Below are positions 207 through 7,952 of a stretch of DNA of 64,000 nt, one piece after another. Source of the DNA: Amphiplicatus metriothermophilus. Its GTDB lineage: Bacteria; Pseudomonadota; Alphaproteobacteria; Caulobacterales; Parvularculaceae. A program made the translations under genes and the position numbers. Where the stretch lies: the NCBI RefSeq assembly GCF_900199215.1, contig NZ_FZQA01000002.1, forward strand, positions 1 through 64,000, in the 5' to 3' direction. The notes under the pieces were generated by a model that saw only the letters and a program-made list of their open reading frames with translations, did no database searches and was not told the origin of the DNA. Positions within the stretch are counted from its first letter, which is position 1, and each line of letters opens with the position of its first letter.

Positions 207-1616
207 TCAAGCGAGAAGCTCCAGAGATTCCTGATGACGGCGGACAAGGTAACCGCGCCAGGCTTCGACCAGTTCTCTTCCGGCGTCGTCCATTGGGGTG
301 GCAAGCAACCCCTCGATCTCCTGAATTGCTGCCTCGAACGTGAGCCACGGCGCAGCCTCAACCTGGCCCGCAAGGCGCCGGGCGATCGCCCGCCTGCCGG
401 AGCGGCGCTGCGCCTCGCTCAGCACGTCCGGGCGTTCGATGTAGATCAGCCTGCGACCGAGCTCGACCAGCCTGGCATCCTCGAATTGCTCAACGATCGC
501 AGGCCGCACTTCCCACGGAACCTTGTGGAATCTCTCCATGCGCGTTTCGTCGGCTGCTTGAACGAACCCGTCGTAAACTCGCTCTTCGACGTGGACTGAA
601 GCCTGACGCGGCTCCCGCGTTGACTCGAATACGGCAATCAGGCGCGCCCGCAGACCATGGTCCGACCGCAGTACATTGGCGCGGCGTTCCAGTTCCTGCA
701 TACCCAGCATTTTCGACCGCGCGATGTCCGGCGCGTCATGGGCCGGCATGAGGATCGGCGAGCCGTTGCACTTAACCACGTGAATCGGCTTTGGCAGGCC
801 GCAGAGCCGCGCCGCCAGTTCTTCGTCACTCAAATTGCGCAGCTCATCGGGATCATGGCCGAGCTCGAAGACGTAATATTCCGAACCGTTCGCCGCGTTC
901 GGTCCAAGGGCTGTAACCAGCCACGAGTACGTGCGGCCTCCGTAGATGGCGCTGAGGGAGAGCACACGCTCGTCGCCAAAGCATTCGAGCACCGCGGCCT
1001 TTTGACTGAGACGCATGAAGGCCGACCAGACATCCGGCGCCCGCTCCTGGATCAACCGGCAAAGATGTACAGTGGCCTCGGCGTCAGCCATCGCGTCATG
1101 GGCGTTGATGTGGAGCCAGCCATTTGCGCGCGCGACCCGTGCCAGGGCGAAACTTGGCACGCCCAGCTGATCGGCAGGGATCGCGAGCGCATCGGGTACG
1201 TAGATCGCCGACGCTTGAACCATGCGCATTACGTCGGTCCGAACGTTGCCGCCGGTGTTCGTCAGGAAGCAGGGGTGCAGGGTCTGGTAGAGGGCCTGGC
1301 GCAGTAGGTGCTCGTCGAAGCGGTATGAGTTGTAGGCCACGAACAGCGCGGGCGACCATGCGAGCAGCTTCTCGCGGATCGCTCGCACCATCTCGTAATG
1401 CGACGGCAGCGCCGGATCAGTCAGATGGGCGATCGTCCTTCCCGTCAGTCGCATCGCCTGCGGCGCCGGAACGATGTGCGGCTGAAGACGGCAGCGCGTC
1501 TCAAATCGTTCCAGTTCGTTCAGCTCGCTGTCCGTCCTGATGGCGGCAAACTGAAGGATCTGGTCGAACGACGTGCTCGTCCCGGTCGTCTCCACATCGT
1601 AGAAGACAATGGCCAT
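207..1616 (-). CDS. sbcB: Exonuclease I (SbcB-like DEDDh 3'-5' exonuclease)
   Basis: A 469-residue protein close in length to E. coli exonuclease I, which degrades single-stranded DNA 3' to 5'. The DEDDh catalytic set is complete: Asp7 and Glu9 in FYDVETTG, Asp101 in YNSYRFDEH, and His173 and Asp178 in AHDAMAD. The stretch QFAAIRTDSE after the first motif and the YDGF element in the C-terminal half also match the family, so the whole ExoI architecture (nuclease, SH3-like and helical parts) is probably kept. The start is the ATG 21 bases after the stop of the ImmA/IrrE gene, so it is the last gene of an XRE-ImmA-ExoI operon. An ExoI gene inside such a regulatory operon, next to a ubiquitin-like cassette, suggests a defence or DNA-damage role rather than housekeeping; that part is inference. 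Confidence 0.88.
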   Translation of the reverse strand: MAIVFYDVETTGTSTSFDQILQFAAIRTDSELNELERFETRCRLQPHIVPAPQAMRLTGRTIAHLTDPALPSHYEMVRAIREKLLAWSPALFVAYNSYRFDEHLLRQALYQTLHPCFLTNTGGNVRTDVMRMVQASAIYVPDALAIPADQLGVPSFALARVARANGWLHINAHDAMADAEATVHLCRLIQERAPDVWSAFMRLSQKAAVLECFGDERVLSLSAIYGGRTYSWLVTALGPNAANGSEYYVFELGHDPDELRNLSDEELAARLCGLPKPIHVVKCNGSPILMPAHDAPDIARSKMLGMQELERRANVLRSDHGLRARLIAVFESTREPRQASVHVEERVYDGFVQAADETRMERFHKVPWEVRPAIVEQFEDARLVELGRRLIYIERPDVLSEAQRRSGRRAIARRLAGQVEAAPWLTFEAAIQEIEGLLATPMDDAGRELVEAWRGYLVRRHQESLELLA

Positions 1617-1637: not shown

Positions 1638-2180
1638 TCAGCGCTTCGGCAGGTTCCTAATTCTGTATTCGAGCATCTGCTTGCTGACCCGGAGTTGCCG
1701 GGCGAGGTCCTCGATCGGTGCATCATCGTCTATGTCGAACCTGCGCGAAGCGAGCGCCTTCTCGATGAAGAAGTCCGGCACGAGCAATGCCGCCGCGAAG
1801 CGGTTGGCCTCGATCTCGATGATGTCCGTACCCAGGGCTGAGGCCGCGTCGCGCCTCAGGGCGCGTAGCTCGATGCGGAACTCCTTATCGACATGGACCT
1901 TCTCGGTAATGAGGTCACGGTGCATCTCGAGATGGCCGATCTCGTGCGCGATGCTAAAGCGTTGCCGGTTCGGATGATGTAGGGCGTTAATGCCGATGAT
2001 CGGCCGCCCGTCCTTCACGAAGATCATACCGGAAAGCTCATCGTCGAGCGGCGAGTAACGGAGCGTGGCGCCCATGTCCTTAGCGATCCTGTCCACGGGA
2101 ACCGGCACGCCGTGGATAGCCATGCGCTCAAGCACTGCGTGGGCTGTCTTTTCGGGATTGGGTCTTCTTGCGGGGGCCAT
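1638..2180 (-). CDS. ImmA/IrrE family metallopeptidase
   Basis: About 180 residues. The zinc peptidase motif HEIGH is seen in FSIAHEIGHLEMH, followed by the helical C-terminal part typical of ImmA/IrrE (COG2856) proteins, which cleave or inactivate partner XRE repressors in mobile elements and stress systems. The reading frame is open to 2219, but the ATG at 2180 is chosen because the ribosome site GAGGAGG lies 9 bases before it, while an ATG just upstream directly abuts that site. With this start the gene still overlaps the XRE gene by 53 bases, so the two are translationally coupled. The pairing predicts that the peptidase relieves repression by its XRE neighbour. Confidence 0.9.
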   Translation of the reverse strand: MAPARRPNPEKTAHAVLERMAIHGVPVPVDRIAKDMGATLRYSPLDDELSGMIFVKDGRPIIGINALHHPNRQRFSIAHEIGHLEMHRDLITEKVHVDKEFRIELRALRRDAASALGTDIIEIEANRFAAALLVPDFFIEKALASRRFDIDDDAPIEDLARQLRVSKQMLEYRIRNLPKR

Positions 2181-2529
2181 GGTCTTCATCCTCCTCGTTG
2201 ACATTGGCGGCAGTGTCATCGCGGATCAGCCGCGCTACCTGTGCCCGCTGGGTGCGACTCAGATTCTCGGGTAGCGGCAGCTCGTCCGCCTCCACCGTGC
2301 TTTCGAGCAAGGCGGGGTTGGGCAGAAGATCGGTCACCTTCAGCCCCAACATCTCGGCAAACCGGTAGAGGTGGTGCAGAAGCATGTTCTGCCGGCCGGT
2401 CTCGATGTTTGCGAGCGCGGCCCTCGACATGCCCATCCGGGCGGCGAGGTCTTCCTGCGTGATCTTGAGCCGCTTGCGCCGCGCCTTGATCAGCGCGCCG
2501 ACATGCCGGCGCAGCAATTCCGAGTCCAT
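2128..2529 (-). CDS. XRE-family helix-turn-helix repressor
   Basis: A 133-residue protein. The N-terminal 65 residues form a Cro/CI-type HTH: KITQEDLAARMGMSRAALANIETGRQN shows the two central helices (given in part as QEDLAARMGMSRAALANIE). The C-terminal half is charged and shows no second known domain; its last residues overlap the start of the ImmA/IrrE gene. It is the first gene of the leftward operon and is divergent from the ubiquitin-like cassette; the 17-base palindrome between them is its likely operator. It is therefore the best candidate regulator of both operons, with ImmA/IrrE as the switch. Confidence 0.88.
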   Translation of the reverse strand: MDSELLRRHVGALIKARRKRLKITQEDLAARMGMSRAALANIETGRQNMLLHHLYRFAEMLGLKVTDLLPNPALLESTVEADELPLPENLSRTQRAQVARLIRDDTAANVNEEDEDHGPRKKTQSRKDSPRSA

Positions 2530-2693: not shown

Positions 2694-3422
2694 ATGTCCC
2701 AGATAGCTGTCGAGGAAGACATCATCGATGTCGAAGATTGCGTCCGGCGCGGCGAGGAGCCGCGCACGGGCGCGCAGTACCGTATCAAGGTCGGCAACGA
2801 CCGGCTCGAGTATGAGACCTATGTCGTCGCCGATCCTGTGCCCACCGGCGCGCAGGTACTCACGGCGGCCGGGCACACGCACGTCGTCGGCCATATCTTG
2901 ATCGCCGTGCTCCGGGACGGCGGCCTGGAAGAAATCCGGCCGGATGAAACCGTCGAGATTTTCCGCCGGGGCGTCGAGCGTTTCATCGCTTTCCGCTCCG
3001 ACCGGTCCTTCCGGTTCATCCTCAACGACCGGCGCCTCGAATGGGGTGCCGACAGCATCCTCGGGCGAGTGCTCAAGCTCCTGGCGGGTCTCGACCCGGC
3101 CAAGAGCGGCGTGTGGCTGGAGCGCCGCGACGAGCCCGATATGCTCGTCGAGGACGATCAGCTCATCTCGCTCGCCGGGAAGGAGGTCGAGCGGTTCCGC
3201 GCCGCGCCCGTCTTCATCCTCTGCATCGAAGGCGACTCACATCGCTGGCTGAAAAGCACCATCACGATGGAGGAAATCGCCGCGCTCGGCGGATGGGACC
3301 CTTCGCAGGGCGTCATCGAGGTCGATAAGGACCAGAACGAGCGCCAGCTCAAGCCGGGCGAGGTCATCACGCTCAAACCCGGCTTCAGCTACGGCAAGAA
3401 GCTCTGCTGGAAGCGGGGCTGA
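2694..3422 (+). CDS. Multi-ubiquitin-like protein, three beta-grasp domains
   Basis: A 242-residue protein that fits the bacterial multiubiquitin family. I see three consecutive beta-grasp units: about residues 29-101 (YRIKVGNDRLEYET...), 105-170 (RFILNDRRLEW...) and 173-242 (VFILCIEGDSHRW...KPGFSYGKKLCWKRG). Each starts with a strand, has a turn rich in W/Y and a late LxPxE or ExxxL pattern. The protein ends directly in Gly242, so the activatable glycine appears exposed without trimming. The ATG at 2694 is preferred over the in-frame ATG at 2649 because GAGGAG precedes it at a good distance. It is first in a tight operon with E2-like, JAMM and E1-like genes. These cassettes are known from comparative genomics and relate to the antiphage Bil-type systems; the substrate here is unknown. 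Confidence 0.85.
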   Translation: MSQIAVEEDIIDVEDCVRRGEEPRTGAQYRIKVGNDRLEYETYVVADPVPTGAQVLTAAGHTHVVGHILIAVLRDGGLEEIRPDETVEIFRRGVERFIAFRSDRSFRFILNDRRLEWGADSILGRVLKLLAGLDPAKSGVWLERRDEPDMLVEDDQLISLAGKEVERFRAAPVFILCIEGDSHRWLKSTITMEEIAALGGWDPSQGVIEVDKDQNERQLKPGEVITLKPGFSYGKKLCWKRG

Positions 3423-3424
3423 CC

Positions 3425-3814
3425 ATGAACGCGCGCATCGAGGCGGAGCTCGGCTTGCTCCGCCTCCACTATGATGAGGCCGAGTATGTCCACACGGGCG
3501 GGCTCCACTGGTTCAGGGTCGGCCCTCTCCGCACCCCGGAAAACTGGTCGCCGGATGCGATCCCGGCCGTGTTCTCGGTGACGGAGGGGCACCCGGGAGC
3601 CGTGCCCTACGGGTTCTATGTGCCGGCTGATCTGACCTTCAACGGCAAGCCACCGTCCGAACACCCGGCACCGCATCAGCCGCCATTTGCCGGCAAATGG
3701 CGCTTCCTCTCGTGGCAGGCGGTCGGATGGCGACCGACTGCCGACATCTCGACCGGCTCGAATCTTTGGGGATGGGTGAGGAGCTTCGTCCAGCGATTGC
3801 GAGAGGGCCAATGA
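3425..3814 (+). CDS. E2-like (UBC-fold) protein of a prokaryotic Ubl cassette, no cysteine
   Basis: A 129-residue protein in the place and size of the prokaryotic E2 family E proteins that accompany multiubiquitin genes. Visible features are a proline-rich centre (FYVPADLTFNGKPP), then KWRFLSWQAVGW and a C-terminal helix (WVRSFVQRLREGQ), which resemble a shortened UBC fold. There is no cysteine anywhere in the protein, so it cannot form the usual E2 thioester. It could be a pseudo-E2, a scaffold that presents the adenylated Ubl, or act through another nucleophile; several histidines are present. It starts 2 bases after the Ubl stop and its stop overlaps the JAMM gene start (ATGA). The family assignment rests on context and general pattern, so it is less sure than its neighbours. 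Confidence 0.7.
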   Translation: MNARIEAELGLLRLHYDEAEYVHTGGLHWFRVGPLRTPENWSPDAIPAVFSVTEGHPGAVPYGFYVPADLTFNGKPPSEHPAPHQPPFAGKWRFLSWQAVGWRPTADISTGSNLWGWVRSFVQRLREGQ

Positions 3815-4350
3815 CCGACACGCTGTTGCTCCTCACCCCGGACCTGCACGCTGCTCTGTGGGCGCATCTGCTTCCAGAGGATAATCACCGCGAACAGGCG
3901 GCGTTTCTCTTCTGCCGCTCAAAGGCCGAGGGCGGCTGCGTGGCGCTTGAGGCGATCGAGGCCGCGTTTCTTAAGGCGGCGGATTTCGCCGCCCAATACA
4001 GCGATTATATCGAGTTGACCGATGAATGCCGGATCGGTCTGATCAAACGCGCTCACGGCCTTGGCGCCGCTCTTGCCGAGTTTCACTCGCATCCCGGTCC
4101 GTGGCCGGCCGCGTTCTCGCCCTCCGACCGCCGTGGACTGAGGGAGACAGTGCCGCATATGCGCTGGCGCCTCCCCGGTCGCCCTTACCTTGCGGTCGTG
4201 GTCGCCCCGTCCGGATTTGACGCCCTTCTTTGGTCGGACGGAGAGAAAGTGCCCTGGCCGCTTGCCGGCATCCGGGTGGCCGGCCGGGTCCATACACCGA
4301 CTAACGCCTCGCTGGAAGGTTGGACCAATGCCGACGCCCGACCGCTTTGA
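3811..4350 (+). CDS. JAB/JAMM metallopeptidase (deubiquitinase-like)
   Basis: A 179-residue protein with a complete JAMM zinc site: Glu28 (REQAAFLF), His92 and His94 in FHSHP, Ser103 and Asp106 in FSPSD. Such enzymes cut after the terminal glycine of a ubiquitin-like protein, either maturing it or removing it from targets. As the partner Ubl already ends in Gly, removal from targets is more likely here; this is inference. The start is the ATG at 3811, which overlaps the E2 stop and follows GAGAGGG; the frame is open further upstream but that part lies inside the E2 gene. The gene overlaps the E1 start by 23 bases. Confidence 0.88.
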   Translation: MTDTLLLLTPDLHAALWAHLLPEDNHREQAAFLFCRSKAEGGCVALEAIEAAFLKAADFAAQYSDYIELTDECRIGLIKRAHGLGAALAEFHSHPGPWPAAFSPSDRRGLRETVPHMRWRLPGRPYLAVVVAPSGFDALLWSDGEKVPWPLAGIRVAGRVHTPTNASLEGWTNADARPL

Positions 4351-5206
4351 TCGAAATGAGCGCCTATTCGGAAAGGAGGGCCAACAGGCAGTACGCCGTG
4401 CCCATGTCGGGATCGTCGGTGTCGGCGGCCTAGGCACGCATGTCGTCCAGCAACTCGCGCTCCTCGGCGTTGGTGCCCTCACGCTGGTCGATCATGAGGA
4501 TCTGTCGCGTTCCAACCGCAACCGCTATGTCGGTGCGTGGCATGACGATCCGGTACCCGGCTCACCCAAAGTCGACCTTGGTCGGCGGCTCGCCGGACTG
4601 ATCGATCCCGCGATCATTGTCGTGACCGTCCGGGATAGCTTGCTGTCATCCGCGGCCATCAGCGCACTCCGCAGCTGCGACTACGTTTTCGGCTGTATCG
4701 ATTCCGATGGCGCGCGCTTCGTCCTGAATGAGTTTTGCCTCGCCTATCGCAAGCCGCTCTTCGACTTGGCCTCGGACGCGCCGGAGCCGGGTTACTATGG
4801 CGGTCGCGTCGCCGTTGTGTGGGGCGACAGCGGCTGCCTCCACTGCCGCGAACTACTCGACGAGGAGGAAGTGCGGCGGTTCCTCTCGACAGCAGAGATC
4901 CTCGAGAACGAGGCGTCGGTCTATGGCATCGACCGCGCGGCATTGGGCGAGGCCGGCCCGTCGGTCGTGTCAGTCAACGGCGTGGTCGCGTCGCTCGCCG
5001 TGACGGAATTCATGGCTATTGTCACGGGTATCCGTCCACCACAGCTACATCTCGACTATCGTGGCGATCGTGGCACGGTTGGCACAAGGACCGATGACCG
5101 TGCTCCTGATTGCTACTACTGTACGGCCATCAAGGGTCAGGGCGACGCCGCGCGCATTGATAGATATTTTCAATCACCGGCGGCCGTGCGAAGCGCCGCG
5201 CCTTGA
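4328..5206 (+). CDS. E1-like ThiF-family adenylating enzyme
   Basis: A 292-residue ThiF/MoeB-type enzyme that should adenylate the C-terminal Gly of the Ubl. The nucleotide loop is GVGGLG (31-36), with Asp55 in LVDHED, the Arg/Asn cluster RSNRNR (61-66) and Asp125 in FGCIDSD. Two CxxC pairs, Cys170/Cys173 and Cys262/Cys265, should bind structural zinc. The conserved AGPSVVSVNGVVAS helix is present. Between Cys173 and Cys262 there is no cysteine, so the catalytic crossover-loop Cys of canonical E1 enzymes is missing. The start at 4328 has GGAAGG 8 bases upstream and overlaps the JAMM gene. It is the last gene of the cassette. Confidence 0.88.
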   Translation: MPTPDRFDRNERLFGKEGQQAVRRAHVGIVGVGGLGTHVVQQLALLGVGALTLVDHEDLSRSNRNRYVGAWHDDPVPGSPKVDLGRRLAGLIDPAIIVVTVRDSLLSSAAISALRSCDYVFGCIDSDGARFVLNEFCLAYRKPLFDLASDAPEPGYYGGRVAVVWGDSGCLHCRELLDEEEVRRFLSTAEILENEASVYGIDRAALGEAGPSVVSVNGVVASLAVTEFMAIVTGIRPPQLHLDYRGDRGTVGTRTDDRAPDCYYCTAIKGQGDAARIDRYFQSPAAVRSAAP

Positions 5207-5773: not shown

Positions 5774-5850
5774 TGGCGCACCCAACAGGATTCGAACCTG
5801 TGACCTCCACCTTCGGAGGGTGGCGCTCTATCCAGCTGAGCTATGGGTGC
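5774..5850 (-). tRNA. tRNA-Arg (anticodon CCG)
   Basis: A full 77-base cloverleaf with encoded CCA. The acceptor stem pairs GCACCCA with TGGGTGC over 7 bases; the D arm, a 5-pair anticodon stem (CCACC/GGTGG) around loop CTCCGAA, and the T arm ACAGG-TTCGAAT-CCTGT are all intact. The anticodon CCG reads CGG (Arg). Accessory genes lie on both sides, and tRNA-Arg genes are common integration targets. Confidence 0.95.
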
Positions 5851-6164: not shown

Positions 6165-6974
6165 ATGTCCCGGCTCGTCTCCGCCCCTTTCTTTAGCGCG
6201 CATCCGGTCTTCGACCGTGCGGAGTACGCGGCTGCGGTAGGCCGAGATCCGAGTGACAAGGTCGTCACCGCGATGCTTGCTCAGCACCTTCAAGCCGGCA
6301 ACATCAAGCGGGTCGCGCGGGGCGTCTTCGCTTCCGTTCCCAAACACGCCGACGCCCGAAAGTGGTCGGTCGATCGGTTCTTGGCAGCATCCCGACTACG
6401 CCGGGGCGCTGTCATCGCCTATCACTCGGCGCTGGAGCTGCACGGCTCCGCCTACACGGAGGGGTATGAGGTCCAGGTGATCGCACCCGGTGAGCCAGGC
6501 GTGCTCGAAGCCGCCGGCTTCTCCTGCCGCTTCGTCAAGCCGCCGCGCGGCTTCGCCCGACGAGATGGAGAATTGAAGGACGGGGTGATGGTGGTTGACC
6601 GCATGGGGCTCGATGTTCGCGTCACGACGGTCGAGCGCACGATCGCGGATCTGTTCGACCGCTACGAACTCGCCGGCGGGGCGGATGAGCTGTTCAACTC
6701 TCTCGATCTCGTGGCACGGGTCGATGCTGCAGCCCTGGTCCGCCACATGCGCGCACTTGGCAACGCGGCGGCGGCCGGTGCGCTGGGCTTCTGGCTCGAG
6801 CGCGAACAAAAGCGGCTTGGCATTCCCGACGCAGCGCTCCGGCAACTGCACGCGATGGCACCGCGTCAGGCTCGTTATGCCCTGGGCGCCAGGCCAGGAG
6901 AGGGGAGGACGGCCAAGGGCTGGAACGTGATCTTACCTCTCGACGTCATGGAACGCCGGTTCGAGGGGCTGTGA
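6165..6974 (+). CDS. AbiEi-type antitoxin/transcriptional autorepressor
   Basis: A 269-residue protein. The N-terminal 60 residues look like a winged helix (MLAQHLQAGNIKRVARGVF), followed by the AbiEi core with AVIAYHSALELHG, then GYEVQVIAP and TVERTIADLFDRYELAGG, the usual family landmarks. AbiEi is the antitoxin of the type IV AbiE system: it does not bind the toxin but counters it and represses the operon. The toxin gene begins with the base after the stop codon. The promoter with an overlapping inverted repeat upstream supports autoregulation. AbiE systems act in phage abortive infection and element stabilisation. Confidence 0.85.
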   Translation: MSRLVSAPFFSAHPVFDRAEYAAAVGRDPSDKVVTAMLAQHLQAGNIKRVARGVFASVPKHADARKWSVDRFLAASRLRRGAVIAYHSALELHGSAYTEGYEVQVIAPGEPGVLEAAGFSCRFVKPPRGFARRDGELKDGVMVVDRMGLDVRVTTVERTIADLFDRYELAGGADELFNSLDLVARVDAAALVRHMRALGNAAAAGALGFWLEREQKRLGIPDAALRQLHAMAPRQARYALGARPGEGRTAKGWNVILPLDVMERRFEGL

Positions 6975-7952
6975 GTGGCGGCGCCTTCGATTCAGACGCT
7001 TCAGCGGATTGCCGACGATACCGGTCATCAGGCCGGGACGCTCGAAAAGGTACTCCGGCTGCTCGATATCCTGCAGCAAGCTGCGGGCGACACCATCTTG
7101 AGTGAACGGCTCGCTCTCAAGTGCGGCACGGCGCTCAATGTCTTTCATCTCGGTCTCGACCGGCTGTCGGTTGATATCGACCTCAACTATATCGGCGCCC
7201 TTGAGCGATCGGCGATGGAAGCTGAGCGGCCAGAGGTCGAAGCTGCTCTGAACCGTCTCCTCGCATCTCAAGGCTATGTCGTTCGACGCCAGCCTGACGA
7301 GCATGCGGGCGGCAAGTGGCTTCTGCGCTTTGCCTCCGCGTTGGGCGGAAACGCCACGCTGGAGCTCGATGTGAACTACATGGCGCGCCAGCCGCTGTTT
7401 GGCGCCGCTCGTATGCCGTCGACTTCGCTTGGCGGCGTACGAGCAGAACAAGTGCTGGTCCTCGACCTCCATGAGATCGTCGCCGGCAAGCTCGTTGCAC
7501 TCTTCGACCGGCACGCAGCGCGCGATCTTTTTGACGCGCGCCGCATCCTGTCGCTCGATGGACTCGACTGGAAAAAGATCAAGGCCGCCATGCTCGCTTT
7601 TGGCGCCTGCGGGCGCCGAGACTGGCGAACGGTGTCAATCGATTCCATCAAAGGTGATCCGCGCGAGCTTCGGCAAAAGCTTATGATTTGTCTGCCGCGT
7701 GGCTATTTCGCTGACCGGCGTGCGATTGACACTTGGGTTGAGGAAACCGTCGCGCTCTGCCGAGAGAAATTTGCCTTCCTTCTCGATTTGACGACGGCCG
7801 AGCGGGAGTTCCTTGACTGCGTACTCGACCGTGGGGAGATCAATACCGATCTGCTGGATGTTGCACCCGAGATCCGCGCTCGCATGGGGGCTATGCCGAT
7901 GCTTGCCTGGAAGTGCCAGAACGTGCGGAAGCATCGTGGGCTCGACGGTTGA
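6975..7952 (+). CDS. AbiEii/AbiGii nucleotidyltransferase toxin
   Basis: A 325-residue protein of the DNA polymerase-beta-like nucleotidyltransferase superfamily. The motif KCGTALN...RLSVDIDLNY places Gly51-Thr52 and the metal-binding pair Asp67/Asp69. Further on, LHEIVAGKLVALFDRHAARDLFDA is the second family landmark, with the conserved Lys and Arg/Asp. AbiEii-type toxins transfer nucleotides to RNA targets and stop growth. The GTG start follows the AbiEi stop without a gap, consistent with tight co-translation. Its C-terminal 100 residues look all-helical. Confidence 0.87.
   Translation: MAAPSIQTLQRIADDTGHQAGTLEKVLRLLDILQQAAGDTILSERLALKCGTALNVFHLGLDRLSVDIDLNYIGALERSAMEAERPEVEAALNRLLASQGYVVRRQPDEHAGGKWLLRFASALGGNATLELDVNYMARQPLFGAARMPSTSLGGVRAEQVLVLDLHEIVAGKLVALFDRHAARDLFDARRILSLDGLDWKKIKAAMLAFGACGRRDWRTVSIDSIKGDPRELRQKLMICLPRGYFADRRAIDTWVEETVALCREKFAFLLDLTTAEREFLDCVLDRGEINTDLLDVAPEIRARMGAMPMLAWKCQNVRKHRGLDG

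Follow-up and report, generated by a model that had tools for sequence, protein, structure and literature searches.

A divergent Bub-type ubiquitin-like operon without canonical thioester cysteines in Amphiplicatus metriothermophilus

Taken together, our analyses place four genes at positions 2694-5206 of the window (the whole 64,000-nucleotide stretch of Amphiplicatus metriothermophilus DNA that was analysed) as a divergent relative of the known Bub system, involving no new principle. The genes encode a ubiquitin-like protein (Ubl), an E2-like protein, a JAMM peptidase and an E1, and they likely form a divergent Bub-type pathway in which the Ubl would pass from its adenylate to Ser96 of the E2 as an oxyester without a covalent E1 step, with roles for the JAMM peptidase and for CapH/CapP-like regulators. 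The canonical thioester cysteines are absent from both E1 and E2, and as judged from the alignments this absence is a property of the Bub-type family. The novelty is limited to an unrecognised E2 branch, to Ubl-E2 fusions and to a cassette carrying an ExoI-like gene.

Operon layout and relation to the Bub pathway

The operon and the divergent cassette beside it comprise the following features:

207-1616, minus strand: SbcB/ExoI-like exonuclease, the third member of the divergent cassette, of uncertain role in the pathway
1638-2219, minus strand: CapP-like M78 (IrrE) metallopeptidase (PADLOC capP, 4.8e-30)
2128-2529, minus strand: CapH-like HTH repressor, divergent
2694-3422, plus strand: Ubl, 242 aa, three Multi_ubiq/beta-grasp domains, C-terminus KRG (ends KKLCWKRG)
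3425-3814, plus strand: E2-like (BubB-like) protein, 129 aa, zero Cys, invariant Ser96
3710-3712, plus strand: codon of E2 Ser96 (frame starting at 3425), proposed Ubl acceptor, present in 19/19 aligned E2s
3811-4350, plus strand: JAMM/JAB peptidase (BubD-like), 179 aa, complete HSH...S..D motif
4328-5206, plus strand: ThiF-type E1 (BubC-like), 292 aa, two zinc Cys pairs, crossover without Cys

Pfam matched Multi_ubiq in three stretches of the Ubl (1.1e-34), Prok-JAB in the JAMM protein (2.9e-6) and ThiF in the E1 (2.4e-37). The preliminary description of a triple beta-grasp protein with a terminal Gly and of a complete JAMM peptidase (H92-S-H94...S103..D106) is thus borne out. The four genes had also been called overlapping, which holds for E2/JAMM (4 nt) and JAMM/E1 (23 nt), but the Ubl and E2 genes do not overlap, being 2 nt apart.

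The operon is genuine coding sequence. A near-identical ortholog (L033) shares 98-99% identity across all four proteins, a second relative (L034) shares 74-80% in the operon proteins, and further relatives reach down to about 40%. The dN/dS between the window and L034 is about 0.1-0.17 with zero stops, indicating purifying selection, which together with the near-identical ortholog argues that the operon is not an artefact. A sequencing error or frameshift, named earlier as something that could have removed Cys-bearing sequence, is ruled out as the cause of the absent Cys by the intact orthologs and these dN/dS values. The missing canonical Cys might also be read as a sign of a decayed, inactive operon; however, with intact frames, the same dN/dS, complete adenylation and JAMM motifs and orthologs in other genomes, this explanation is scarcely credible.

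In comparisons with the PDB, Citrobacter BubCD was ranked behind MoeB alone as a match to the E1 (4.7e-16; hhalign 7.7e-16), the JAMM protein matched the N-terminal part of the BubCD chain (5.1e-6), and the E2 was related to BubB by both profile and fold. The Ubl matched solved bacterial multi-Ubl proteins (E 2.5e-28 to 4e-23), sharing a tandem beta-grasp modifier with structures 9cd2, 9d59 and 9d5b and with Methylobacterium brachiatum Ubl-BilA (8u38); Bil is a different operon type, and the comparison with it covers the Ubl alone. Because of these matches of E1, JAMM and E2 to BubCD and BubB, and of the Ubl to multi-Ubl structures, the cassette, in which Ubl, E2, E1 and JAMM genes occur together, is regarded as Bub-like. 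For the Bub pathway and for Citrobacter BubB and BubCD, PMC13373217 gives Ye et al. 2026, NSMB 33:71, as the reference.

Compared with the Citrobacter structures of BubB and BubCD (PDB 9ea4, 9ea5, 9ea8, 9eae and 9eav), the window operon shares the order of JAMM then E1, the E2 fold, and an E1 and E2 without canonical Cys, the Citrobacter chains being judged on their visible stretches. It also has CapH/CapP-type regulators, which are frequent neighbours of Bub operons. It differs in that JAMM and E1 are separate genes and in that the E2 belongs to a distant branch with SW replacing SRH. In addition, the window E1 has two zinc Cys pairs, of which the first-site pair is missing from the matched part of Citrobacter BubC.

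Cysteines of the E1 and Ser96 of the E2-like protein

CBASS Cap2/Cap3 likewise bring the functions of E1, E2 and JAMM into a defence operon, but Cap2 relies on Cys thioesters on both its E1 and E2 domains (PMC10097602), as had been correctly stated for the canonical relay. Neither the crossover Cys on the E1 nor the active-site Cys on the E2 that such a relay requires was found in the window operon. On translation, the E1 has its Cys exactly at 117, 123, 137, 170, 173, 262 and 265, with zinc pairs at 170/173 and 262/265 and an empty stretch at 174-261, exactly as first described.

The comparison covered 25 Bub-type E1s, comprising the window E1, its relatives and the matching stretch of Citrobacter BubC. 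R66, K81 and D125, the adenylation residues, are invariant in all of them, a Cys in the core crossover (174-211) is absent from 24, and no other conserved nucleophile was found. A few carry a Cys further on, in the next helix, as does Citrobacter BubC. The sole E1 of the set with a core-crossover Cys is that of L063 (3493-4884). As a control, the MoeB/ThiF-like E1 of the same genome has a crossover Cys213 between its zinc pairs. Since the Bub-type E1s have neither a crossover Cys nor another conserved nucleophile, direct transfer appears probable: the E1 would adenylate the Gly at the C-terminus of the three-domain Ubl, and the Ubl would be passed straight from the E1 adenylate to the E2.

A hidden catalytic Cys in the E1 was considered and rejected, as C117 and C137 vary among relatives, C123 lies beside the adenylation Asp and the other four form the zinc pairs. 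A related alternative is that, before transfer, the Ubl becomes covalently bound to the E1 as an ester or thioester at the non-canonical C123, S212 or Y199. C123 is present in 21/25 E1s, and S212 and Y199 are both invariant within the near family; however, C123 stands two residues ahead of D125 and has its equivalent in MoeB, while S212 is kept in only 12/25 E1s and Y199 in only 10/25, and we consider this alternative quite improbable. Membership of the E1 in the ThiF/MoeB superfamily would also fit activation of the Ubl for a non-conjugation role, as a sulfur carrier or signal. Against this stand the dedicated E2 and the complete JAMM peptidase under purifying selection, the relation to Bub and the defence-type neighbours, which leave such a role very little probability.

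The E2-like protein has zero Cys in 129 aa, as first noticed. It had no Pfam match, scored below the curated cut-off of Prok-E2_E (PF14462) as well, and obtained no direct assignment by Pfam, NCBIfam or PADLOC; the best Prok-E2_E match within its close family reached only 0.047. The profile of this E2 and its close relatives nevertheless matches Citrobacter BubB (7.6e-5). An AF2 model built from 18 sequences (pLDDT 90, pTM 0.85), with the plasmid sequence L089 left out whole from the alignment used for folding, clearly matches a single PDB entry, BubB (prob 1.00, whole-chain TM 0.73, E 1.6e-3); from a single sequence the model is weak (pLDDT 70), with BubB still the top match. Searches of phages and viral contigs for this E2 gave no hit.

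No conserved Cys was present among 19 aligned E2s of three branches (window type, L087 type and Prok-E2_E type). Only P38, P57, G90, S96 and W102 are invariant, and Ser96 is the sole invariant residue among all Ser, Thr, Cys, Lys, His and Tyr positions. The question of whether absence of Cys is family-wide is thereby answered for the nearest relatives, in which it is general, and the proposed alignment of E2 and E1 to their relatives revealed an invariant Ser96 and no conserved Cys in the E2, and no usable catalytic Cys in the E1. As the absence of these Cys is general in Bub relatives, the window locus is no anomaly.

By hhalign, S96 pairs with the invariant Ser of the WQRWSRH motif of the Prok-E2_E type, which is found in Citrobacter BubB too. 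The invariant Ser in a W..(W/L/F)S motif is a likeness to Pfam Prok-E2_E (profile-profile E 2.9e-9), although the window E2 itself is unmatched by that model. A single HMMER local alignment set S96 against a neighbouring non-conserved Ser of BubB, with which deeper alignments disagree. The residues next to Ser96 differ by branch (SW versus SRH), and the catalytic surroundings may thus differ from those of BubB. In a further short E2-like group (L047, L054 and L056), a Ser within a similar WxxxSW motif is likewise invariant, but the profile match of this group is weak (E 7.7e-5, probability 62%).

These observations bear on what replaces the thioester. Of the options raised originally, use of another nucleophile gains a candidate in the conserved Ser96, while halting at the adenylate, transfer straight to a target and a Ubl polymer are less favoured. 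Ser96 would take the Ubl as an oxyester and hand it to a target, probably a Lys. Ser96 could instead have a structural role. Other E2-fold proteins are inactive scaffolds, and with both E1 and E2 devoid of Cys, the E2-like protein might be a non-catalytic scaffold (UEV/RWD-like) that positions a target whose amine attacks the E1-bound Ubl adenylate. A mere scaffold should have no need of an invariant Ser, yet one is kept in 19 sequences that share only five invariant positions, and we regard this reading as unlikely. The oxyester on Ser96 is preferred. Ye et al. 2026 reportedly describe a serine-type intermediate in the Bub mechanism; if so, the puzzle of the family is already largely answered. 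No text on a Ser intermediate came up in our literature search, which did not extend to the primary papers on Bub, on Bil and on the structures of bacterial Ubl proteins.

Ubl-E2 fusions, the divergent cassette and the neighbourhood

The KRG end of the Ubl is terminal in the window, L033, L034 and L066, and is followed by one Ala in L057. In three relatives, KRG is followed directly by a fused E2 in a single protein (L035, 2802-3845; L036, 6016-7059; and the plasmid L089, 5344-6387). Its conservation whether terminal or internal identifies the Gly as the functional end of the Ubl. The fused forms point to a likely maturation role for the JAMM peptidase, since release of the Ubl from them would need a JAMM cut directly after KRG. 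The JAMM peptidase may therefore trim Ubl precursors or Ubl-E2 fusions, and may also remove the Ubl from targets. More tentatively, a separate Bub branch outside Prok-E2_E might possess a Cys-free relay in which the Ubl moves directly from the E1 adenylate to E2 Ser96 and in which, in the fusions, prior JAMM cleavage after KRG couples maturation, charging and conjugation to one polypeptide, a possibility about which we are rather doubtful.

An HTH gene beside an M78 peptidase, recognised by the capH and capP models, constitutes a CapH/CapP pair in the window. The trio of HTH, M78 peptidase and ExoI-like genes recurs in the same order beside multi-Ubl operons in L033, L047, L056 and L058, including operons with differing E2 types. 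The exonuclease is rare (5/100 related genomes) and is found elsewhere without CapH/CapP homologs. Bub operons have been described as putative immune pathways whose phage protection was not shown, 219/544 of them adjoin CapW or CapH+CapP, and CapP is activated by ssDNA (PMC13373217). By analogy, the CapP-like protease would sense ssDNA and cleave the CapH-like repressor, thereby controlling expression. As ssDNA activates CapP, the adjoining ExoI-like exonuclease might act on this ssDNA signal, tuning or erasing it.

The locus is a defence island that lies where the contig ends. A tRNA-Arg(CCG) gene (5774-5850, minus strand) adjoins the operon, and beyond it, downstream, lies an AbiEi/AbiEii-type toxin-antitoxin pair (6165-7952). 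As the window begins at the contig end and the tRNA-Arg adjoins the operon, the island may have integrated at this tRNA gene. Several other multi-Ubl operons are followed by small Cys/His-rich proteins (L048, 3856-4260; L051, 4169-4543; L037, 3810-4268) of the type CPGGCG...HQRPRW...ACGCHFW, which are absent from the window operon.

Thus, the missing thioester Cys appear to be a rule of the Bub-type family that extends to an E2 branch unrecognised by current Pfam models. Ser96 is the single residue whose mutation would test ubiquitin-like transfer without cysteine, and the Ubl-E2 fusions and the CapH-CapP-ExoI cassette offer handles on maturation and regulation.
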